The notes beneath the pieces are model-generated. The model did not search any database. It worked only from the letters and a program-made list of their open reading frames with translations, and had not been told where the DNA came from. This document shows positions 3,729-29,843 of a stretch of 40,185 bases of DNA, in pieces. The first letter of the stretch is position 1. Each line of letters starts with the position of its first letter. The translations under genes were made by a program, and so were the position numbers. Origin of the DNA: Parcubacteria group bacterium GW2011_GWC2_42_12 (GTDB taxonomy: Bacteria; Patescibacteriota; Patescibacteriia; Patescibacteriales; GWC2-42-12); contig LCCP01000017.1 of the NCBI GenBank assembly GCA_000997945.1, positions 1 through 40,185 of the forward strand. Direction: 5' to 3'.

Positions 3729-4586
3729 ATGGACCTTTCAATTATCATCGTTTCCTGGAATGTTAAAGAAAAATTAAAAGATAATCTTAGAGCATTGTTT
3801 GAGAGTCGACATGCTGATTTTGAAGTTTTCGTGGTGGATAATAATTCGCAAGATGGTTCTGCCGCTATGGTACGGCGATTATATCCGCAGGTGAAATTAA
3901 TAGTTAATCAAGATAATTTGGGATTTTCCCGGGCTAACAACCAGGCGATTAAACAGGCCAGCGGTAAATATATTTTGCTTTTAAATCCTGACATGAGAGT
4001 GTTTGACGATACTCTCTCAAATATGGTTTCCTGGTTGAATTGGCATGAGCGGGCCTGGGTGGCGGGGTGTAAGTTGGTAGACGAAAACGCGCGAGTAGTA
4101 AAGCAGGTTCGCCGTTTTCCGGCGCTTTTTAATCAATTGGCGATAATTTTAAAGATACCGCACCTCTGGCCGGCGATTTTAAATAAATATCTCTGGTCGA
4201 ATTTTGATTATACTAAATCAGCCGCGGTTGATTCTATCAGAGGCGGTTTCTTTATAATAAAAAAACAAGCCATCGAGAAAGTCGGCCTATTGGATGAAAG
4301 ATATTTTTTATGGTTTGAAGAAGTTGATTATTGCCGGCGCGTTAAAGAAACGGGCGCAGAAGTCTGGTATTCTAACGCGGCCGAATGCATCGATTTGGTC
4401 GGTCAAAGTTTTAAACAGGTAAATTTAGCGATAAAACAAAGATATTTTCGCGATTCCATGCTGAAATATTTTAGAAAGTGGCATTCGCCGTTTGCTTATT
4501 GGGTTTTAAAATTATGCTGGCCCATTGGTTTATTATTGGCCTGGGTAGCGGAGAAAGTGAGAATAAAAAGCGGTGGAAAAACATAA
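3729..4586 (+). CDS. GT2 family glycosyltransferase (rhamnosyltransferase-like)
   Basis: Starts MDLSIIIVSWN and carries VDNNSQDGS, NLGFSRANNQAI and LLLNPDM, the typical nucleotide and metal sites of WbbL-type GT2 enzymes. WFEEVDYCRRVKETG is the acidic ED-type motif. In many relatives the following segment reads as His-x-x-GxS; here it is IDLVGQSF, lacking that His. It is 285 aa, a usual length, with a hydrophobic C-terminus (WVLKLCWPIGLLLAWV) suggesting membrane association. It follows the previous GT2 by 23 bases and is probably in the same operon. Confidence 0.85.
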   Translation: MDLSIIIVSWNVKEKLKDNLRALFESRHADFEVFVVDNNSQDGSAAMVRRLYPQVKLIVNQDNLGFSRANNQAIKQASGKYILLLNPDMRVFDDTLSNMVSWLNWHERAWVAGCKLVDENARVVKQVRRFPALFNQLAIILKIPHLWPAILNKYLWSNFDYTKSAAVDSIRGGFFIIKKQAIEKVGLLDERYFLWFEEVDYCRRVKETGAEVWYSNAAECIDLVGQSFKQVNLAIKQRYFRDSMLKYFRKWHSPFAYWVLKLCWPIGLLLAWVAEKVRIKSGGKT

Positions 4587-6663: not shown

Positions 6664-6684
6664 GCCGTATATTCGGTGTTGTGC
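6664..6684. other. Isolated right half of an attC-like site
   Basis: GCCGTATATTCGG followed by TGTTGTGCGATG resembles the right halves at 7461-7479, 10428-10446 and 11025-11043, with core GTTGTGC at 6678-6684 identical to that at 11037. No matching left half (a CGAATATACGG-type arm) is seen upstream, where mtnA begins, so this is probably the left boundary of the array. Confidence 0.6.
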
Positions 6685-6702
6685 GATGTTTCGGTCTGCG
6701 CG

Positions 6703-7023
6703 TTAAAACGAGACAACTTTATCGCTTTCTTTTACTATTTCGTGTAAATCTTTCATGGTTGAAATAGGGCACATTTGCGAGCCTTCCGATTCGCGGCTCT
6801 TTAAACATGTACCGCAGGCAAAAATTTTTCCATTATTACTAAGAAATAATTTCGCCTGTTCTTTAATGTTAAATTTTTTGCTATTAAGAGCTTCATATTC
6901 TACTCCCTTTGCTAGCAAAAAGATTTTTACCAAATTACCTTCTTTGAGCGAAAAATTTGCGAATCGAAAAGCATTCCATACAGTTTCAGCGTCATTTGAG
7001 TAGATAATAATTCCTAGTTTCAT
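6703..7023 (-). CDS. DsrE/DsrF-like family protein
   Basis: A 106-aa cytoplasmic protein of the DsrE-like sulfur-relay fold: MKLGIIIYSNDAETVWNAFRFANFSL at the N-terminus, VKIFLLAKGVEYEAL in the middle, and a conserved Cys pair in ACGTCLKSR. Family members carry or transfer sulfur on the conserved Cys or act as small accessory proteins; the partner is unknown here. The gene is the outermost member of the integron-like array, lying between the isolated half-site at 6664-6684 and the truncated repeat at 7061-7106. The stop lies 18 bases from the half-site core. Confidence 0.7.
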   Translation of the reverse strand: MKLGIIIYSNDAETVWNAFRFANFSLKEGNLVKIFLLAKGVEYEALNSKKFNIKEQAKLFLSNNGKIFACGTCLKSRESEGSQMCPISTMKDLHEIVKESDKVVSF

Positions 7024-7152
7024 ATTTATAAAGTTAATGTTAAGTATTTAGCATAGTCGAAAAGGAGCGAGCGATTTCGGCATAACGTATCGGCGTATCT
7101 GAAGTTTTAATGCTTTTTTATTTTTCTCTAATTTTAGATATTATTTTAACTC

Positions 7153-7180
7153 TTGACAACCCTGTCAAATCTGTTATACT
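7153..7180 (+). promoter_or_regulatory. Sigma-70-type promoter of ncRNA copy 1
   Basis: TTGACA at 7153-7158, a 16-base spacer, and TATACT at 7175-7180. Transcription would start near G7187, the first base of the long paired stem. The same arrangement precedes copy 2. Confidence 0.85.
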
Positions 7181-7186
7181 GATAAT

Positions 7187-7395
7187 GTCGAATACGGATT
7201 CTACTGAACTCCCGAAGTCCGAGACCCTAAGGGGGATCGGGCTTTTTGTTTTGTAAAATTTATGATAAAATTTTTATGTGGAGTTTAAGGGGCTACCTCA
7301 CGGTGAGGAATCCGTATTCGACATTCGGATAGAGGGGTTCAATACCCCTTGGCTCCACGTCAGAAACCATCTCAAAAGCGAGGTGGTTTTTGATT
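7187..7395 (+). ncRNA. Structured RNA with tRNA-like 3' domain, copy 1
   Basis: Bases 7187-7201 pair fully with 7308-7322 (15 bp). Inside lie AACTCC (7207-7212), which can pair with GGAGTT (7280-7285), and a hairpin AGTCCGA/TCGGGCT (7216-7243) followed by a T-run, i.e. an internal terminator-like element. The 3' part holds hairpin CCTCA/TGAGG (7296-7308) and a T-arm-like hairpin AGGGG-TTCAATA-CCCCT (7333-7349) followed by TGGCTCCA. Alternatively GGAG (7280) pairs with CTCC and ATCCG (7310-7314) with CGGAT (7326-7330), giving a cloverleaf-like fold exclusive with the long stem. AACCATCTC/GAGGTGGTT plus T-run closes the unit. The T-arm and acceptor end resemble the 3' end of tRNA or tmRNA, but no tag reading frame is seen. 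No known family is assigned. Confidence 0.75.
7365..7395 (+). terminator. Rho-independent terminator of ncRNA copy 1
   Basis: AACCATCTC and GAGGTGGTT form a 9-bp stem (one G-T pair) followed by TTTGATTT. The same element ends copy 2 at 10016-10047. Confidence 0.8.
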
Positions 7396-7473
7396 TGCCA
7401 AAAAATAAAATTAATTTTCAATAAACAGAAAAATTATAAATTTATTCTCATCTGCTCCGCCGGATACTCGTTG

Positions 7474-7939
7474 TTATATGATGTAAAAAACTAATAAATT
7501 ATTTAACTCTCAAAAAATCCCAAAAGTCGTATAGCACTATGCCAATATAAAGTAATATAACGAATCCAAAAATTATAGCATAGAAAGAGGGATAAATTAT
7601 TTTAACTGCCAGCACAATACTTTCAAGCAGTAATGCTATTAGTAGTATAAAAGTAAAAGTCGCACCATGTGAAAGCAGCTTTCCTGCCATTGAGTCAAGT
7701 TTGCTTTTTTCATAAGTAAAGGCAAAGTTTGCGAAACATACTGTTACAAGCAACATACTGATTATAAGAAGAAAGTCGCTTATTTGTCCCAGTCCAATTT
7801 GATTTATAGAGTTCGCAATAACAGGCCACAGGGAAGCTGCGATTATAACAATAATCGCGTTTTTTATTATATTTTTCTTAAAGGAATTTAATACCATAAT
7901 TTTTGTGGTTAAAATTTATTAGTTTTTTATTTCACATAA
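7474..7939. mobile_element. Cassette-like unit with its own terminal inverted repeats (unit A)
   Basis: The left end TTATATGATGTAAAAAACTA (from 7474) is matched by the reverse complement of the right end (7913-7939), TTATGTGAAATAAAAAACTA, and the match continues through ATAAATT. The arms enclose one minus-strand membrane-protein gene. The left end overlaps the attC-like core GTTATAT and the right end abuts the double-hairpin block. Confidence 0.65.
7499..7897 (-). CDS. Small integral membrane protein, unknown function
   Basis: I do not recognise the family. The 132 residues hold four probable membrane segments: NAIIVIIAASLWPVIA, FLLIISMLLVTVCFANFAF, ATFTFILLIALLLESIVLAV and AIIFGFVILLYIGIVLY, joined by short loops; the C-terminus is basic (DFLRVK). 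It is the only gene of a unit bounded by matching inverted repeats, and points away from the recombinase gene, as cassette genes do in integrons. The ATG lies close to the right inverted repeat and no Shine-Dalgarno is seen. Confidence 0.65.
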   Translation of the reverse strand: MVLNSFKKNIIKNAIIVIIAASLWPVIANSINQIGLGQISDFLLIISMLLVTVCFANFAFTYEKSKLDSMAGKLLSHGATFTFILLIALLLESIVLAVKIIYPSFYAIIFGFVILLYIGIVLYDFWDFLRVK

Positions 7940-8102
7940 TGGCTTCGGAATAAGCGAAGTGGCCGAAGGAATTTCGTAGCGGAGCGGAGAAATGCCGAAA
8001 GGCCATTTTGCGTATTCCGAGTTATGCCATTATGCCGAAAAGGAGCGAGCGACCCGAGCCGACCGCAGGAAGGCGAGGGGGAGCGAGCGATTTCGGCATA
8101 AC
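7935..8102. repeat. Double-hairpin block, copy 1
   Basis: Hairpin H1 (7935-8027) has arms CGGAATA/TATTCCG and inner pairing GGCC/GGCC, beginning at CATAAT and ending at GTTATGC. Hairpin H2 (8028-8102) has outer arms TTATGCCGAAA/TTTCGGCATAA around two direct copies of GGAGCGAGCGA-like sequence. Nearly identical blocks occur at 9561-9738, 10701-10869 and 11523-11705, and a fragment at 7061-7086. The ORFs called within it are shadows. Confidence 0.85.
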
Positions 8103-8196
8103 GTATCGGCATATCTGATGTTTGCCGTAGCGTAGCGGAGGCAAATATGGGTAGAGGCTTTTGTAAAAAGCCGTAACCAGATATGCCTTGTTATAT
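8096..8196. other. attC-like hairpin site (site 2, compact)
   Basis: GCATAAC (8096-8102), spacer GTATC, arm GGCATATCTG (8108-8117), bulge AT, GTT; then a 52-base loop with two small hairpins; then AAC (8175-8177), arm CAGATATGCC (8178-8187), spacer TT, and GTTATAT (8190-8196). The arms are perfectly complementary over 10 bp plus GTT/AAC. R-box, spacer, L-box, extrahelical bases and a size of about 100 bp match the architecture of integron attC sites. Confidence 0.75.
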
Positions 8197-9565
8197 GATG
8201 TATGCTTTTCTTTTTGTTCCGCCTTAGCGGAAACACTTTTCTGTAATGAACAAATTTTATTTTTGTCTTGGCGAGGGGCAGAGGGGCTTGGGGGTGAATG
8301 CCCCGAAGCTAAGACTCCTTATTCTGCGCGTTCAATGATGTTAACTATCCCATTATTTGCGTCCAACTCAACCAAATCGTCGCCTCGTAAAATTTTAGTA
8401 GCGTTTTTTGTGCCAACAATACATGGTTTTTTCATCTCTCTGGAAACAATAGCTGCATGGCAGATAATACCACCTTCATCCGTAACGAAAGCCGCAGCTT
8501 TAGTCATAGCTGGCATATAGGCTGGCGTGGTCATTGGAGAAACCAAAATGTCTCCCGGTGTTATTTTGTTTAATTGCTCTCGATTCATTACCACTTTTAC
8601 TTTACCCCGAGCTTGCCCAGGACTTGCCGAAAACCCTTTCAATTGAGTTGCGGTAGATAATATTTTCTTATCAATCAATTTATAACCGCGAACTTTTAAA
8701 ACAGTCGAAATTTCTTTCTTTGTAAACAACTGATTGGCGAAATAAGCACAACCGTCATTGCGTTTTTTAAACTCTGAAAAATTATATTTCTGTTTAGCTA
8801 TGACCGCTTTTTTTAATTCTTGAATAAGAAAAAATTTCATTAAATTTTTAGGCCAGCTTTTTTCTTTAGCAATCATGTGTAAATATTGGTATATCAGATC
8901 ACAAGCATCGTCAAAAAAAGTGTCGCCTTGGCGTAATTTAGTTGCTTTGTCTAAAATCTTTTTGGAAAATAATGATTTTTTTTCTGTTTTACCGCCATTT
9001 CATTCCAAGTCACGCACCAATAAGCCGGAATGAGGCCCGCCATGCCCTCTATAAATAAATTTTGGGTCTCTTTTATTTTATTGACTGCTTTTAGGCTTTT
9101 CACTGAGCTTATTGGTTGCACTTTTTCTTTCTTTAGCTTCTTGCCTATCTTGATATACCTATCAAATTCAGCTAAAAGACGCTTGGTGTTTTTGGGCTCT
9201 TTTGCCCAGCGTGATATGGCCTTAGGTAGTGTGTCAAAGAAAAGCTGAGTTGCGCGCCAACTTTCAACAGCGCCATTTTGAAAAATATAAATTGGTTCCG
9301 GAAATTTAACTTCAAAATCAAAAACTCTAGGTATAGAATCAGTAAAATATTTATACCATGCGGCAATCAAAATAAACGGAGCATCACGTGTCATGACTTT
9401 TTCGTATTTGATGATTTTTCTTGTCATATTAAAATCGTTTTCTGAGTGAGGTCACGAGCGAAGAAAACACCATATACACCCCTCTATAAAAATTAAAAAT
9501 AAAATTTGTCCATTATAGAAAAGTGTTAGGTATTAGCCGTAAAAAGAAAAGCATATTTCATATAA
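8191..9565. mobile_element. Cassette-like unit with terminal inverted repeats (unit B, PEP-utilising gene)
   Basis: The left end (8191-8215) begins TTATATGATG and continues ATGCTTTTCTTTTT; the right end (9541-9565), reverse complemented, begins TTATATGAAA and continues identically, 23 of 25 matching. These ends are not shared with the other units. The unit carries one frameshifted minus-strand gene. Confidence 0.7.
8319..9427 (-). pseudogene. Frameshifted PEP-utilising-enzyme mobile-domain protein
   Basis: Two ORFs of the track (8951-9427 and 8319-8876) are parts of one gene. After AVKQKK the frame is lost at a run of eight A (minus strand, near 8978); reading one base further gives SLFSKKILDKATKLRQGDTF, which joins directly to the second ORF. 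The restored product would be about 370 aa. The C-terminal part is the phospho-histidine swivelling domain of PEP synthase/PPDK-type enzymes, with the catalytic His in GGIICHAAIVSREMKKP; the usual TSH is here ICH. The N-terminal part has no recognisable ATP-grasp motifs. A one-base deletion, a sequencing homopolymer error or slippage could explain the shift. It is the cargo of unit B. Confidence 0.75.
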
Positions 9566-9738
9566 TGGCTTCGGAATAAGCGAAGTGGCCGAAGGAATTT
9601 CGCAGCGGAGCGGAGAAATGCCGAAAGGCCATTTTGCGTATTCCGAGTTATGCGAAGTCGCGCCATTATGCCGAAAAGGAGCGAGCGACCCGAGCCGACC
9701 GCAGGAAGGCGAGGGGGAGCGAGCGATTTCGGCATAAC
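9561..9738. repeat. Double-hairpin block, copy 2
   Basis: Same H1 plus H2 organisation as copy 1, but with GAAGTCGCG inserted between the H1 end GTTATGC (9647-9653) and H2 (from 9664). It begins TATAAT rather than CATAAT, matching the TTATATG end of the adjoining unit B. It ends in the GCATAAC of the next attC-like site. Confidence 0.85.
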
Positions 9739-9804
9739 GTTTCGGCGTATCTGAAGTTTTAATGCTTTTTTATTTTTGTCTAATGTTAGATACTTTTTAA
9801 TCTA

Positions 9805-9832
9805 TTGACAAGCTGGCTTGTTGTGTTATACT
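9805..9832 (+). promoter_or_regulatory. Sigma-70-type promoter of ncRNA copy 2
   Basis: TTGACA (9805-9810), a 16-base spacer and TATACT (9827-9832), followed by AATAATG, so transcription would start near G9839. The spacer sequence differs from copy 1 while both hexamers are conserved. Confidence 0.85.
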
Positions 9833-9838
9833 AATAAT

Positions 9839-10047
9839 GTTAAGTGCGGAATCTGTTGAACTCCAAAGTCCGAAACCCTAACGGGGATCGGGCTTTTTGT
9901 TTTGTAAAATTTATGGTAAAATTTTTTTGTGGAGTTGAGGGGCCACCTCATGGTGAGGGTTCCGCACTTAACATTCGGAATTGAGGGGTTCGATACCCCT
10001 TGGCTCCACCTCAGAAACCATCTTAAAAGCGAGGTGGTTTTTGATTT
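9839..10047 (+). ncRNA. Structured RNA with tRNA-like 3' domain, copy 2
   Basis: Same length and layout as copy 1. The long stem 9839-9853/9958-9972 differs from copy 1 at five base pairs, all compensated (C-G to T-A, G-C to A-T, A-T to G-C twice, T-A to A-T), plus one pair changed to G-T. The alternative pairing TTCCG (9960-9964) with CGGAA (9976-9980) is also compensated relative to copy 1. AACTCC (9859)/GGAGTT (9931), the internal terminator-like hairpin (9867-9894 plus T-run), hairpin CCTCA/TGAGG, T-arm AGGGG-TTCGATA-CCCCT (9984-10000) and TGGCTCCA are conserved. The end terminator is at 10016-10047. This supports a real RNA with two exclusive folds. Confidence 0.78.
10016..10047 (+). terminator. 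Rho-independent terminator of ncRNA copy 2
   Basis: AACCATCTT pairs with GAGGTGGTT and is followed by TTTGATTT; one pair is weaker than in copy 1. Confidence 0.75.
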
Positions 10048-10105
10048 ACCGTATTGAAAAATAAAAAAGCATTAAAATTTGCGTGAGCGAGCGTTAAGAA
10101 TAAAA

Positions 10106-10399
10106 TTATTTTTTTATTTTCCCTAGTAATATATGATAACTTGTTCCAGTAGATATTAAGCTTGATGAATTATTTTTTTCCGTATGCAGAATTGTATATT
10201 CTCCAGAATTGAGTTTTTCACTAATTTTATTATTTTGATATTCATTAATTTTGTCACTAAATAATTCGTGTAGTTCAATGTCGTATATATTTCGATGTTT
10301 CCACCAGCCCTTAATAACAATAACAGATGTTATAGTTAAAGCTACAATTGAAAATAGCAGAGAAATTAGTTCCATGAGATTATTTTTGATAAATTGCAT
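10106..10399 (-). CDS. Small single-pass membrane protein, unknown function
   Basis: I do not recognise it. The 97 residues have one membrane segment (ISLLFSIVALTITSVIVIKGWW, about residues 12-33) followed by a polar, probably cytoplasmic part. The gene is framed by inverted repeats of its own (ATAAAATTATTTTTT at about 10099 and its complement at 10400-10414) and lies inside the split attC-like site 3, next to ncRNA copy 2. This suggests it came as a separate cassette. No Shine-Dalgarno is seen. Confidence 0.55.
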   Translation of the reverse strand: MQFIKNNLMELISLLFSIVALTITSVIVIKGWWKHRNIYDIELHELFSDKINEYQNNKISEKLNSGEYTILHTEKNNSSSLISTGTSYHILLGKIKK

Positions 10400-10440
10400 A
10401 AAAAATAATTTTATTTAGCTCGCGAACCAGATACGCCGTG

Positions 10441-10677
10441 TTAGGCGATGTTATTAAACTTTTTATTACTTTCCTCTTCCTCTAACTTTTTGGCAACTTT
10501 TATTGCTACATGCGATCTTACGGTCATAAAATACCAAAAATACAGACCAGCAACTACAATTACAACTAATAATGTGTTAATTGTTACATCTTCAAAAGAA
10601 TATGATATTTTTGCAATAACTATTAGTAAAATCCATAACTTAGGAGTTAAAAATTGCCAAAAAAATCTAAAAAATAA
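10441..10677 (-). pseudogene. 5'-truncated small membrane protein gene lacking a start codon
   Basis: The minus-strand frame encodes a plausible protein: RFFWQFLTPKLWILLIVIAK, a SFEDVTINT loop, a second membrane segment LLVVIVVAGLYFWYF, then a charged tail AKKLEEEESNKKF. Its stop (10441-10443) overlaps the GTTAGGC core of site 3. No ATG, GTG or TTG occurs in frame before the second membrane segment, and an in-frame stop stands at 10678-10680, close to the double-hairpin block. The start may have been lost when the block was joined; a one-base shift there would fuse it to a repeat-derived ORF. The plus-strand ORF 10448-10681 is its shadow. Confidence 0.5.
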
Positions 10678-10700
10678 TTAAGAAATTTCTGGCTATTTCA

Positions 10701-10869
10701 CATAATGGCTTCGGAATAAGCGAAGTGGCCGAAGGAATTTCGTAGCGGAGCGGAGAAATGCCGAAAGGCCATTTTGCGTATTCCGAGTTATGGCCATTAT
10801 GCCGAAAAGGAGCGAGCGACCCGAGCCGACCGCAGGAAGGCGAGGGGGAGCGAGCGATTTCGGCATAAC
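10701..10869. repeat. Double-hairpin block, copy 3
   Basis: Same H1 plus H2 structure as copy 1, beginning CATAAT and ending in GCATAAC (10863-10869). The H1 end reads GTTATGG rather than GTTATGC. Confidence 0.85.
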
Positions 10870-11043
10870 GTATCGGCACATGCGAAGTTGCGCCGTGAAT
10901 TATTGAATTAAATGTTAATTATCGCCTATCTTGATTATATCACTAAACTTGCCATTTCGTCAGCGCAATTTGGGTTGAGGAAATTTTGCACTCCTTGAAA
11001 TATAATTGCGCAAAATTTCTGAACCGCATGTGCCGTGTTGTGC
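10863..11043. other. attC-like hairpin site (site 4)
   Basis: GCATAAC (10863-10869), spacer GTATC, arm GGCACATGCG (10875-10884), bulge AA, GTT; right half AAC (11022-11024), arm CGCATGTGCC (11025-11034), spacer GT, GTTGTGC (11037-11043). The arms are perfectly complementary and differ in sequence from those of sites 2 and 3. The loop of about 130 bases holds nested inverted repeats (GCGCAATT/AATTGCGC and GAAATTTTGC/GCAAAATTTC) but no gene. Confidence 0.75.
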
Positions 11044-11105
11044 GATGTTTTAAAAAACAAACATTCTTTATAAAAAAGAGCCTTTTTGAAATTTTTTGGC
11101 TGGGC

Positions 11106-11134
11106 TTGACAGGCCGTCTGTTTTCTGCTATACT
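11106..11134 (+). promoter_or_regulatory. Promoter of the 66-aa cassette gene
   Basis: TTGACA (11106-11111), a 17-base spacer, TATACT (11129-11134), the same hexamers as the two ncRNA promoters. The leader that follows contains a small hairpin AACGC/GCGTT (about 11141-11158). Confidence 0.85.
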
Positions 11135-11193
11135 AATTTGAACGCTAATTTTGGCGTTGAATTGTTCCAAAAAACCACGAAGGAGGAAGTGCG

Positions 11194-11394
11194 ATGGAAG
11201 AGCTGACGATCGGAACTAAAGTGGTGTTGAATGTTGGTGGCAAAGAAAGTATCGCAAGAGTCACCGACAAAAACGGTACTATGATGGAGCTGACAACAGA
11301 GAGTGGCGAAACTTTGTTCATGGAGCTTCAGAAAGCAGGGGATGGTTGGGAATTGGTCCCCAACACCCGTATGGTGAAGATGACTACCCTGTAG
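11194..11394 (+). CDS. 66-aa small protein of unknown function, self-contained cassette gene
   Basis: I do not recognise it with certainty. The product is short, acidic and beta-rich, with alternating hydrophobic residues (TKVVLNVGG, ESIARVTDKNG, MMELTTESG, ETLFMEL, GWELVP), suggesting a small barrel such as an SH3-like or OB-like fold; no Cys and no membrane segment. A strong Shine-Dalgarno (GAAGGAGG, 8 bases before ATG) contrasts with the rest of the window, where starts lack one. Codon use looks richer in G/C-ending codons than the neighbours. Promoter, gene and terminator lie within one inverted-repeat unit, so it was probably acquired from another host. Small antitoxin or nucleic-acid-binding roles are possible but unsupported. 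Confidence 0.75.
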   Translation: MEELTIGTKVVLNVGGKESIARVTDKNGTMMELTTESGETLFMELQKAGDGWELVPNTRMVKMTTL

Positions 11395-11422
11395 TACTTC
11401 ACCTACATCACATCTCGCCAAT

Positions 11423-11460
11423 AGCTCGTTCAAGGATAAAAACCTTGCGGGCTTTTTTCT
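11423..11460 (+). terminator. Rho-independent terminator after the 66-aa gene
   Basis: AGCTCG (11423-11428) pairs with CGGGCT (11448-11453) and CAAGG (11431-11435) with CCTTG, followed by TTTTTTCTTTT. Confidence 0.85.
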
Positions 11461-11522
11461 TTTCCAAAAAAATTTCAAAAAGGCTCTATAAAAAGATAAA
11501 ATGTTTATTTTTTAAAATTTCG

Positions 11523-11705
11523 TACAATGGCTTCGGAATAAGCGAAGTGGCCGAAGGAATTTCGCAGCGGAGCGGAGAAATGCCGAAAGGCCATTTTGCG
11601 TATTCCGAGTTATGCGAAGTCGCGCGAAGCCATTATGCCGAAAAGGAGCGAGCGACCCGAGCCGACCGCAGGAAGGCGAGGGGGAGCGAGCGATTTCGGC
11701 ATAAC
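11523..11705. repeat. Double-hairpin block, copy 4 (nearest the recombinase)
   Basis: Same H1 plus H2 structure, beginning TACAAT, which matches the TTGTACG end of unit C. The H1/H2 junction carries GAAGTCGCGCGAAG, a longer version of the insert in copy 2. ORFs in the track over this block are shadows. Confidence 0.85.
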
Positions 11706-11757
11706 TCTCTATTATACGAACAATTTTTTAGAATTTGCTTTAGTTTGTATATTATGC
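11699..11757. other. Compact attC/attI-like hairpin upstream of the recombinase gene
   Basis: GCATAA (11699-11704) pairs with TTATGC (11752-11757) and ATACGAAC (11714-11721) with GTTTGTAT (11743-11750, one G-T pair), leaving unequal internal spacers. It ends 59 bases before the recombinase start. By position it could be the primary (attI-like) site or a regulatory palindrome for the recombinase. Confidence 0.5.
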
Positions 11758-11816
11758 GAAATTATGATATTATTTATTTAAAATAATCTCGCTAATATTA
11801 TTATAGTTTAAAATCT

Positions 11817-12638
11817 ATGAAATTGGAAGAGCTTTTAAAAAGAATAGAAAACGAACTTAAACTTAGAAACTATAGCCGAAAAACTATTAAGAGCTATTTA
11901 ATTTGCCTGGCGGACTATTTTCGCTATATTAAAAATGTCGTAAAAGATCCTGATATCGGCCTGATTAAAAGATACCTTCTGGAAAAACAGGATAGGGGGC
12001 AGGCCTCGCAGACCATCAATCTTTATTTAAACGCCATAAAATATTTCTACCGAGAGATTTTTAAAAATAATGTTCCCCTGGATATTAAATTTGCCAAAAC
12101 GGCGAGCAAGTTGCCCGTCGTCTTGTCTAAGAAAGAAATAGAAAAAATAATTGATTCAATCAGCAACAAAAAACACATGCTACTTATCGCTCTCTCGTAT
12201 GGGGCGGGTTTTAGGGTAAGCGAAGCCATAAATTTAAAAATAAAAGATGTGAATTTGGCTGAATTAACCATTCATCTTAAGGGCGCTAAAGGTAATAAAG
12301 ACCGGCTAACGATTTTTCCCGAAAGAGTCAAGGCGGGGCTGGCTGAAATTATGGCCTTGCGCGATAAAAACGATTTTGTCTTTGCCAGTGAACGGGGCGG
12401 GCATTTAACCGAGCGGTCGGCGCAAATGGTATTTGAAAATGCTTTGAAAAGATGCCATATTAATAAAGAAGCCACTTTTCATTCCTTACGGCATAGTTTT
12501 GCCACGCATCTCTTAGAAAACGGCGTGGATGTGCGCTATGTTCAGGAACTCCTGGGCCATGCTAATATTAGGACTACGCAAATTTATACCAAAGTGACTA
12601 ATCCAAGTTTAAAAAAGATAAAGAGTCCGCTGGAATAA
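11817..12638 (+). CDS. Tyrosine site-specific recombinase (XerC/D or IntI-like)
   Basis: A 273-aa tyrosine recombinase. Residues 1-85 form the SAM-like core-binding domain (LRNYSRKTIKSYLICLADYF); residues 100-265 form the catalytic domain with Arg133 (GAGFRVSEAINL), the beta-hairpin Lys near 157-161 (KGAKGNKDR), HxxR as His222/Arg225 (FHSLRHSFATHLLENG), His248 (LLGHANIRTTQIYT) and nucleophile Tyr257. The C-terminus KIKSPLE resembles the SPLD tail of integron integrases, but the extra IntI patch between motifs II and III is absent, as in XerC/D/A proteins. It lies at the end of the array with the block and hairpin 59 bases upstream and points away from it, as integron integrases do. Confidence 0.88.
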   Translation: MKLEELLKRIENELKLRNYSRKTIKSYLICLADYFRYIKNVVKDPDIGLIKRYLLEKQDRGQASQTINLYLNAIKYFYREIFKNNVPLDIKFAKTASKLPVVLSKKEIEKIIDSISNKKHMLLIALSYGAGFRVSEAINLKIKDVNLAELTIHLKGAKGNKDRLTIFPERVKAGLAEIMALRDKNDFVFASERGGHLTERSAQMVFENALKRCHINKEATFHSLRHSFATHLLENGVDVRYVQELLGHANIRTTQIYTKVTNPSLKKIKSPLE

Positions 12639-12642
12639 AATA

Positions 12643-12700
12643 AAATGTAAAATTAAAAAATCAAAATGGAAAATGACAATGTAAAATTTAAAAATAATAA
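12643..12700. repeat. AT-rich dispersed repeat supplying a start codon
   Basis: The sequence around AAAATGACAATGTAAAATT recurs at 13862-13911, each copy preceded by AAAATGTAAAA and ATCAAA. Here the repeat runs across the start of the next GT2 gene, so ATGGAAAATGACAATG is both the repeat and the first five codons. Confidence 0.6.
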
Positions 12701-13856
12701 GCGAGTCGCGATAATATTGGTAAATTACAAAGACTACGCGGAAAAATATTTAGCGGATTGTTTGGCTGGGCTAAAAAAGCAGGATTATGCCGGCGAAATA
12801 AAAATATTTATAACTGATAATGAAAGTACGGCGGAGAGTTATGGGTGCGTAAAAAAGATTTTGGACGGAAACAGCCCCTTCCCTCCCCCCTCGCAAGGGG
12901 GGCATAAAATCCCCCTCGCCCCCCTTATTAACGGGGGTAAATACGAAATAATCAGAAATAAAAATAACGATGGTTTTGCCAAGGGTAATAACGATGCTAT
13001 TAAAAAGGCGCTGGAGCAGGGATTTGAATATGTAATCTTGTTTAATTTGGACACGATTATTGAGCCAGATTGCGTAAAAAAGATGGTGGAAGCGGCAGAG
13101 AATAATCTGGATTCCCGCCTGCGCGGGAATGATAAAAAAGAGATTGGCGCGGCGCAGGCGCGATTGATGCTCTGGCCGGAGAAAGAAAAAATCAATAGTT
13201 TAGGCAACATAACTCACTTCTTGGGGTTTGGTTATACCGATGGTTATGGAGATGAATACAAATCCCCCCCACTCCCTTTGTTAAAGGGGGTAGAAATTTG
13301 TTATCCATCTGGGGCGGCGGTGTTACTTACTAAAGAGGCGCTAAAAAAAGTCGGGCTGTTTGATGAAGAATTTTGGATGTATAATGAAGATCAGGATTTG
13401 GGCTGGCGGATTTGGCTGGCCGGTTATGGCTGTGTTTTAGCGCCGGGAGCCGCGGTCTATCATAAATACGAATTTAGCCGCAGTATTAAAAAGTATTATT
13501 GGTTGGACAGAAACCGTATCATGGCCATTTTAAAAAATTATCATTGGGCGACTTTAATGCTAATTCTGCCGGCTTTTGTTGTCATGGAAATCGGCTTGAT
13601 ATTTTTTGCTTATAAAAACGGCTGGTTTTATGAAAAAATAAAAGTTTACAGTTATTTTTTGAATTTAGCCAATTGGCGGAGAATTATGGCCGAAAGGAAA
13701 AAAGTTCAAGAATTGAGAACAGTGCCAGACAGAAAAATAGTTAAAATGTTTAGCGGTAAGATTTGGTATCAGGAAATAGGGGGAAAGCGGCTAAGGGTCG
13801 CGAATGCGCTATTTAATGCGTATTGGAAAATAATAAGAGTTTTGATAAGATGGTGA
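12666..13856 (+). CDS. GT2 family glycosyltransferase with repeat-derived in-frame insertions
   Basis: GT-A-fold glycosyltransferase for surface glycans. Core motifs: VAIILVNYKDY, ITDNESTAES, NDGFAKGNNDAI, LFNLDTIIEPD (DxD-like), YPSGAAVLL, and YNEDQDLGWRIWLAGYG; AAVYHKYEFSRS follows. The C-terminal 100 residues include a membrane segment (TLMLILPAFVVMEIGLIFFAY). At 396 aa it is longer than its neighbours because palindromic elements are read through in frame: PFPPPSQGG..PLAPLINGG (12874-12938), DSRLRGND (13111-13130) and PPLPLLKG (13264-13292). The first codons also come from a repeat, so MENDNVKFKNN may not be native. Confidence 0.85.
   Translation: MENDNVKFKNNKRVAIILVNYKDYAEKYLADCLAGLKKQDYAGEIKIFITDNESTAESYGCVKKILDGNSPFPPPSQGGHKIPLAPLINGGKYEIIRNKNNDGFAKGNNDAIKKALEQGFEYVILFNLDTIIEPDCVKKMVEAAENNLDSRLRGNDKKEIGAAQARLMLWPEKEKINSLGNITHFLGFGYTDGYGDEYKSPPLPLLKGVEICYPSGAAVLLTKEALKKVGLFDEEFWMYNEDQDLGWRIWLAGYGCVLAPGAAVYHKYEFSRSIKKYYWLDRNRIMAILKNYHWATLMLILPAFVVMEIGLIFFAYKNGWFYEKIKVYSYFLNLANWRRIMAERKKVQELRTVPDRKIVKMFSGKIWYQEIGGKRLRVANALFNAYWKIIRVLIRW
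12874..12938. repeat. CCCCCTCACCCCCTTT-type palindromic element inside a gene
   Basis: C-run and G-run arms (CCCCCCTCGCAAGGGGGG, then CCCCCTTATTAACGGGGG) give palindromes read in frame by the GT2 gene, adding about 20 residues. Related copies are at 13264-13292, 15683-15797 and 38063-38096. Confidence 0.75.
13111..13130. repeat. ATTCCC-N8-GGGAAT element inside a gene
   Basis: ATTCCCGCCTGCGCGGGAAT is a perfect palindrome of the ATTCCC-N8-GGGAAT type known as dRS3 in Neisseria and found in other bacteria. It is read in frame as part of LDSRLRGNDK. Confidence 0.8.
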
Positions 13857-29672: not shown

Positions 29673-29700
29673 TTGACAGCCTGAGCGATTATGTTAATAT
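29673..29700 (+). promoter_or_regulatory. Promoter of the rplJ-rplL operon
   Basis: TTGACA (29673-29678), a 16-base spacer, TAATAT (29695-29700). It lies just downstream of the preceding gene. Confidence 0.8.
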
Positions 29701-29710
29701 AAATTTAATA

Positions 29711-29807
29711 GTCGCAGACAGCAGGTGCCAAAATTAGGCGTAAATCCTGCCGAGACCAAGCTAATTTTAGCTATTTTAGAGTCTGCGCATTAGGCAGATT
29801 TTTTTTA
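29711..29807 (+). promoter_or_regulatory. L10 (rplJ) leader with attenuator
   Basis: The leader has the conserved AGACAGCAGGTGCC and TAAATCCTGCCGAGAC of ribosomal protein L10 leaders. GCAGAC (29714-29719) pairs with GTCTGC (29781-29786), and GCAGG (29721-29725) with CCTGC (29746-29750). The same GTCTGC region can instead pair with GCAGA (about 29795-29799), making a hairpin followed by TTTTTTTT, i.e. a terminator. Binding of L10(L12) to the leader would favour one fold; this autoregulation is known for the family. Confidence 0.88.
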
Positions 29808-29843
29808 TTAAAAAAGATAATTTATCAATAAATTTTAAATAAT

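Follow-up and report, generated by a model that had tools for sequence, protein, structure and literature searches.

Within the window, the whole 40,185-nucleotide stretch that we analysed, repeat and core-motif analyses delimit a cassette array at positions 6678-11705, followed by a putative attI (11703-11770) and, on the forward strand, a gene for a XerA-like tyrosine recombinase of 273 amino acids (11817-12638) that, according to profile searches and structure-based alignment, lacks the IntI-specific domain. The bodies of the array begin with GTTNNNNGATGT and finish with ATTTCNNNNAA(C/T), and attC-like palindromes lie between them. The putative attI adjoins the integrase gene, and TCGTTATTATGCGAAGTGTTTTCGTA-like sequence is conserved at the equivalent place beside related integrases in several loci. 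The array is located between glycosyltransferase genes (3729-4586 and 12666-13856). Similar neighbour genes surround related recombinases at four loci of other genomes (L015, L017, L018 and L160), marking a conserved insertion position.

Four copies of a double-hairpin attC-like repeat (7929-8102, 9555-9738, 10695-10869 and 11517-11705, of which 11528-11705 lies beyond the right core motif of the unit described below) are situated between the gene cassettes; they are 90-96% identical, absent elsewhere in the genome, and perhaps represent an amplified gene-less cassette. The cassette of main concern here, which carries a 66-amino-acid ORF, is separated from the next by a long attC-like site read from the sequence at 10864-11043. 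The apices of such long sites (10870-11037 and 9739-10440 in the window, and one at locus L045) resemble two hairpins, each with private arms, and their apical hairpin loops can carry a 97-aa ORF, a nuclease-like 91-aa ORF or an RNA element. A non-coding cassette element is present twice, at 7150-7400 and 9800-10055. It combines a strong promoter with an early stem resembling a terminator, a further -10-like site and a domain similar to the 3' end of tRNA/tmRNA (GGGGTTCRATACCCCTTGGCTCCAC); its match to the tmRNA model (E 6.5e-6) is below the gathering score. It also contains a 14-15-nt stretch, TGTCGAATACGGATT, complementary to a later AATCCGTATTCGACA, and the complementarity is preserved in the second copy through compensatory changes. 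Another cassette (8319-8876) encodes a stand-alone PEP-utiliser mobile domain of 185 aa, a domain that is normally part of large dikinases. Most cassette genes of these arrays point away from the recombinase.

The best curated family match of the recombinase was NF040815 (XerA), co-linear over its full length at 224 bits (cut-off 220), while the integron integrase model TIGR02249 gave 208 bits, below its cut-off of 265. Alignment of the recombinase profile to VchIntIA (2a3v) breaks into two parts, with ∼15 profile residues against ∼57 in IntI, and about 40 residues are lacking at the site of the IntI additional domain, around patch III. This additional domain is one of the defining characteristics of IntI integron integrases (PMC9668308), and the recombinase does not possess it. 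Two other hallmarks of integrons in the strict sense are present, namely cassettes bounded by GTT/AAC cores beside a tyrosine recombinase and, judged by core letters, attC cores that would pair in a circular cassette. The core letters agree between both ends of most bodies that have two recognisable ends (ATAT, GTCA, AAAT, ATGT, ATCG, AGCT and AGGC), with one mismatch in the 66-aa unit, and this agreement fits a circular intermediate. On these comparisons the resemblance of array and recombinase to an integron would be functional and anatomical, strict membership failing on the integrase domain. Close relatives of the recombinase were found in Moranbacteria, Wolfebacteria, Nomurabacteria, Peregrinibacteria, WWE3, Dojkabacteria, Magasanikbacteria and Gracilibacteria, often at contig ends. 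The open-access literature yielded no earlier paper on integron-like arrays in Patescibacteria.

The unit itself is enclosed by an inverted repeat of ∼60 bp with 80% identity between its arms (11038-11097 and 11467-11527; E ∼1e-9 within the array region and 2.3e-9 across the whole genome). Direct reading of the sequence shows that the repeat encloses, on the forward strand, an ORF of 66 codons preceded by promoter, leader hairpin and AAGGAGG and followed by a terminator. The left arm (11038-11097) bears the terminal shell bracket AAAAGAGCC(T/C)TTTTGAAATTTTTT, and shows compensatory changes with respect to the right arm in six units. It is followed by a near-perfect, extended -10 promoter of sigma-70 type at 11106-11134 (TTGACA at 11106-11111, a 17-nt spacer, and TATACT at 11129-11134 with its TG extension), which is conserved in related units. 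The 5' leader hairpin AACGC...GCGTT (11141-11158) is at the predicted transcript start; its energy alone is unremarkable (z -0.99), and it is recognised by covariation. The Shine-Dalgarno sequence AAGGAGG (11180-11186) lies 7 nt upstream of the ATG of the 66-aa ORF (11194-11394), which is presumably translated. An intrinsic terminator (11423-11462) consists of a stem at 11423-11453 and a T-tract, 5 of 200 shuffled sequences folding equally well, and the right bracket CCAAAAAAATTTCAAAAAGGCTC with the right arm, located by repeat search and compensatory changes, occupies 11464-11527. The preliminary description had proposed just this arrangement of promoter, hairpin, Shine-Dalgarno, ORF and terminator inside one inverted repeat, and repeat, motif and folding analyses bear it out. 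Its limits for the unit also proved exact, since they coincide with recombination-core motifs: the left core GTTGTGCGATGT at 11037-11048, which forms the body boundary distal to the integrase, and the right core ATTTCGTACAAT at 11517-11528, which forms the integrase-proximal boundary. The GTTGTGCGATGT motif class recurs at other units of the array and in other genomes, where it co-varies with the right core.

We compared the unit with its host using the window plus 20 further stretches (about 378 kb), together about 418 kb of the 1.03-Mb genome. Among 297 genome ORFs of at least 120 aa, eight had a Shine-Dalgarno match of 6 nt or more and two had one of 7 nt or more, 7 nt being the length of the unit's own match; internal ATGs score the same as these 297 gene starts, and hence there is no enrichment at starts. 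A T occupies position -1 at 70% of the 297 start sites, whose upstream sequence is A/T-rich and carries no Shine-Dalgarno signal. The anti-Shine-Dalgarno TGGATCACCTCC was not found in the assembly, from which the rRNA may simply be missing. An ordinary ribosomal protein L10 leader (RF00557) is present at 29694-29814. The promoter pattern TTGACA..TGNTATA(A/C)T occurs three times in the 5.3-kb array and not once in about 413 kb of other genome sequence. Codon adaptation of the 66-aa ORF falls at the 2nd percentile among length-matched chunks of the genome, and its GC3 is 0.58 compared with a mean of 0.44. The earlier claim that other genes have almost no Shine-Dalgarno therefore extends to the genome, in which strong Shine-Dalgarno sequences are rare rather than common, and the codon-usage comparison likewise marks the ORF as atypical. 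The unit is self-contained, differs from its genome and sits in a mobile-element context, and its predicted expression need not depend on the array, as had also been suggested.

No homologue of the 66-aa protein was detected by sequence in Pfam, NCBIfam, PHROGs, PADLOC or the PDB, in phages, plasmids, IMG/VR or GTDB contigs, or in 60 relatives and a phylum-wide set of 380 genomes, so that core genes of the lineage did not appear among its relations. A match to RodZ_C was sub-threshold (E 0.034), and short matches of 42-48% identity in two genomes (G058 and G022) were judged to be due to chance, lying inside open frames of 629 and 632 codons. Using a single-sequence model of the protein (mean pLDDT 76), Foldseek returned only SH3/Tudor-type matches, all with E >0.2. 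The modelled beta barrel gives a weak hint that this cargo may be a small SH3/Tudor-like binding module. Since sequence and structure searches alike gave only sub-threshold matches, the product is still unrecognised, as it was at the outset.

The atypical codon usage, GC3 and Shine-Dalgarno of the ORF and its lack of homologues in 60 relatives would all suit the model put forward in the preliminary description, by which a single gene was transferred from another bacterial group with its native promoter, Shine-Dalgarno and terminator. The bearing evidence came from a screen of fetched loci for ORFs with strong Shine-Dalgarno sequences, in which one genome (G060) had two units with the same leader before an unrelated 61-aa ORF. 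In an alignment of these units with that of the window, both brackets, the promoter and the leader corresponded and the coding parts did not. We refer to the corresponding parts as the shell and to the remainder as the cargo. The shell was searched for with a promoter-leader pattern over the order and class and then with a profile model. Because the 27-nt pattern lacks specificity by itself when 3 mismatches are allowed (5 reversed-control matches against 8 real ones), each unit was judged on its full shell. We define the class by arms that bracket the unit, TTGACA-17-TGCTATACT, a leader hairpin and a strong Shine-Dalgarno, arranged in a set order, and the unit of the window has all of these. 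There were 13 shell units in nine genomes: that of the window (G000) and 12 cassettes in eight other patescibacterial genomes, two each in G024, G060, G656 and G782 and one each in G012, G025, G514 and G599. Units G024a and G025 have no recognisable left arm, and the right side of G782a is broken. An all-against-all comparison of the 13 cargos revealed two homologous pairs only, and thus 11 unrelated cargo families. Cargo GC ranged from 0.38 to 0.62 versus 0.24 to 0.43 for the shells. Terminators differ across the cargos and are common only to homologous ones (G656/G599 and G060/G645), which indicates that the terminator goes with the cargo and not with the shell.

A covariance model added copies in G507 (2e-20), G645 (1e-16), G782 (contig C7, 3e-11) and G661 (2e-9), as well as a copy in the same genus (G002, E 9.5e-6) with a 150-aa cargo of GC 0.56. 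Matches with E ≤1e-5 occurred in 16 of the 381 genomes of the class, some of them being units used to build the model. Nearly all of these genomes are fragmented metagenome assemblies, and this prevalence is a lower bound because arrays often break contigs. Matches without brackets were seen in G490, G544 and G783, the first two being weaker; the last resembles a native gene. The shell was not found in phage records or in plasmid or IMG/VR collections, and one IMG/VR match to the promoter motif (L162) was discarded as it sits within a coding region. We also noted two further shell classes with strong Shine-Dalgarno sequences. One has another leader, ATATTGCTCTTTTAAAACAAATATTTTTAGGAAGC..., and precedes homologous 89-90-aa ORFs at L044 and L046 and a different ORF at L045; the other, GAGGATCTGCTCTTT..., lies beside an attI-like sequence at L186 and L188 and precedes ORFs of 77 and 88 aa.

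Since the same arms, promoter and leader recur around unrelated cargo in other Patescibacteria, including one of the same genus, the promoter and leader are not a donor's own. The proposed acquisition from another bacterial group is consequently retained in part: the cargo (Shine-Dalgarno region, ORF and terminator) is the foreign part, but promoter and leader were not imported with the gene from one foreign bacterium. For these two elements single-gene transfer is largely refuted, the lack of the shell in phage, plasmid and viral collections also counts against it, and we regard it as highly improbable.

Comparison of the units also showed how their structures have changed. Both arms could be read in six units; there, 17 of the 43 consensus pairs of the arms show compensatory changes, and distinct arm types can be told apart (AAACAAAC/GTTTGTTT, TTCAAAAATAT/ATATTTTTGAA and TTTGCCCTTAAA/TTTAAGGGCAAA). 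Across 14 related leaders, compensatory double changes affect four of the five pairs of the leader hairpin. These changes indicate that both the arm and the leader structures have been maintained. Units G661 and G656b carry the same shell in another hairpin of an attC-like site, where the arms belong to a different type. Arms are present at the other bodies of the window's array, and cassette-specific ones also in arrays beside related integrases of other patescibacterial lineages, for example in WWE3 (97% identity over about 70 nt). Wherever the contig also includes recombinase or attI (the window, G012, G060 and G599), shell transcription is directed towards it, opposite to most cassette genes; in the other units with a recognisable left core, that core is upstream of the promoter.

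Terminal inverted repeats of about 60 bp, and the occurrence in several genomes of related units that carry other passengers, could also be explained by a small transposable element (MITE-like or transporter-type) that carries passengers, is mobilised by a transposase in trans and was inserted here by chance. However, the ends of the unit coincide with array core motifs that co-vary between both ends of each body, the several arm types are tied to core or hairpin position, and units lie in or beside arrays wherever their context is readable. Inspection revealed no target-site duplication or direct repeat around 11038 and 11527, and no transposase domain was found among the array proteins searched. 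We therefore consider a transposable element very unlikely.

With regard to the source of the cargo, two families have distant relatives on proteobacterial plasmids, and one of them also on large phages. The 145-aa cargo of G656/G599 matched proteins of Pseudomonas and Serratia plasmids, with E values starting at 3e-15 for Pseudomonas megaplasmids, and at 3e-9 proteins of large phages of Caulobacter, Brevundimonas and Burkholderia; the 122-aa cargo of G507 matched one of a Cupriavidus megaplasmid (1e-8). Many of the cargo ORFs are tiny and resemble membrane proteins or lipoproteins. These features, and the self-contained promoter-ORF-terminator anatomy, recall a phage-moron-like or addiction unit, in which a strongly expressed small gene of a patescibacterial virus or plasmid is kept for defence or as a toxin or antitoxin. 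Against this, PADLOC, PHROG and Pfam gave no assignment, the shell is absent from IMG/VR and phage records, and the array is inside a glycosyltransferase gene cluster rather than in a prophage or phage. As each unit has one ORF with expression signals and not a two-gene operon, there is no toxin-antitoxin pair. We find this explanation highly improbable; it concerns the function of the cargo and is no competitor to the cassette reading.

Taken together, we think it very probable that the unit is a gene-cassette body in an integron-like array run by the XerA-like recombinase, and one of a class with a conserved shell and interchangeable cargo. Its anatomy, the recurrence of the shell with unrelated cargos, the compensatory change in arms and leader and the constant orientation are the observations on which we draw. 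The shell comprises the recombination cores, the cassette-specific arms, the AGAGCC..TTTTGAAATTTTTT bracket, the strong extended -10 promoter and the 5' leader hairpin, and the cargo comprises the Shine-Dalgarno region, the ORF and its own terminator. The adjacent recombinase is presumed to move the unit by excising the cassette as a circle, in which the attC would lie between the arms and so gain a longer hairpin stem, favouring single-strand recombination; such a prolonged stem in the circle would explain why the arms are cassette-specific and co-varying. With a strong promoter, a 5' end protected by the hairpin and a strong Shine-Dalgarno, the cargo may be expressed without an array promoter, although native genes of this genome make little use of Shine-Dalgarno sequences. 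The cargo would be swapped between leader and T-tract. Where the preliminary description had a gene bringing along the signals of its donor, we now envisage a gene placed into a common shell, and the new point suggested by these alignments is that the expression signals belong to the conserved shell.

The recurrence of the shell around unrelated small genes in integron-like arrays leads us to suggest that several Patescibacteria with tiny genomes have a mobile capture-and-express format for foreign genes in common. More tentatively, the integron-like recombinase might trade cassettes whose constant shell provides promoter, stabilised leader and recombination arms, while the coding insert and its terminator are replaced by foreign small genes, from leader hairpin to T-tract, in a dedicated exchange step, a proposal that we put forward as possible rather than probable. 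How cell-dependent bacteria with genomes of about 1 Mb acquire foreign genes and switch them on is poorly known, and the format offered here is a concrete one: an array with its recombinase next to a gene cluster of exopolysaccharide type, with cassettes that would bring promoter, leader and ribosome site. Conservation of the shell but not of the cargo means that the shell sequence could serve as a probe to list the genes captured by these bacteria. The origin of cassettes, a long-standing integron question, may be approachable by comparing one shell with many inserts.

Integron gene cassettes are known from bacteria, and archaeal ones have been described as well (PMC9668308). Like integron cassettes, the units described here lie in tandem next to a tyrosine recombinase, have GTT..AAC cores, a putative attI and palindromic attC-like sites with cores matching within one cassette, and carry small, mostly unknown ORFs, most of them oriented away from the recombinase. 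Unlike in integrons, the recombinase has no IntI-specific domain, the bodies have cassette-specific arms extending 20-70 nt beyond the core, and one class has a constant promoter-leader shell that holds exchangeable cargo and reads towards attI. Promoter-bearing integron cassettes, such as the toxin-antitoxin cassettes of large chromosomal arrays, have promoters that belong to the genes they drive; they share with our unit an internal promoter and predicted expression independent of the array promoter, but here one promoter-leader shell is common to unrelated genes. Phage morons likewise are self-contained, with promoter, ORF and terminator, and are atypical in composition, whereas our unit is outside a prophage, is bounded by recombination cores and has a shell conserved over different cargos. 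The start-associated repeats of some mycobacteriophages place near-identical leaders before different small genes, as the shell does, but are not known to have inverted-repeat boundaries or a recombinase array. Finally, XerA tyrosine recombinases (NCBIfam NF040815; PDB 4a8e and 5hxy) are the best curated, full-length co-linear match to the recombinase; XerA resolves chromosome dimers at dif, whereas the recombinase gene described here adjoins a cassette array.
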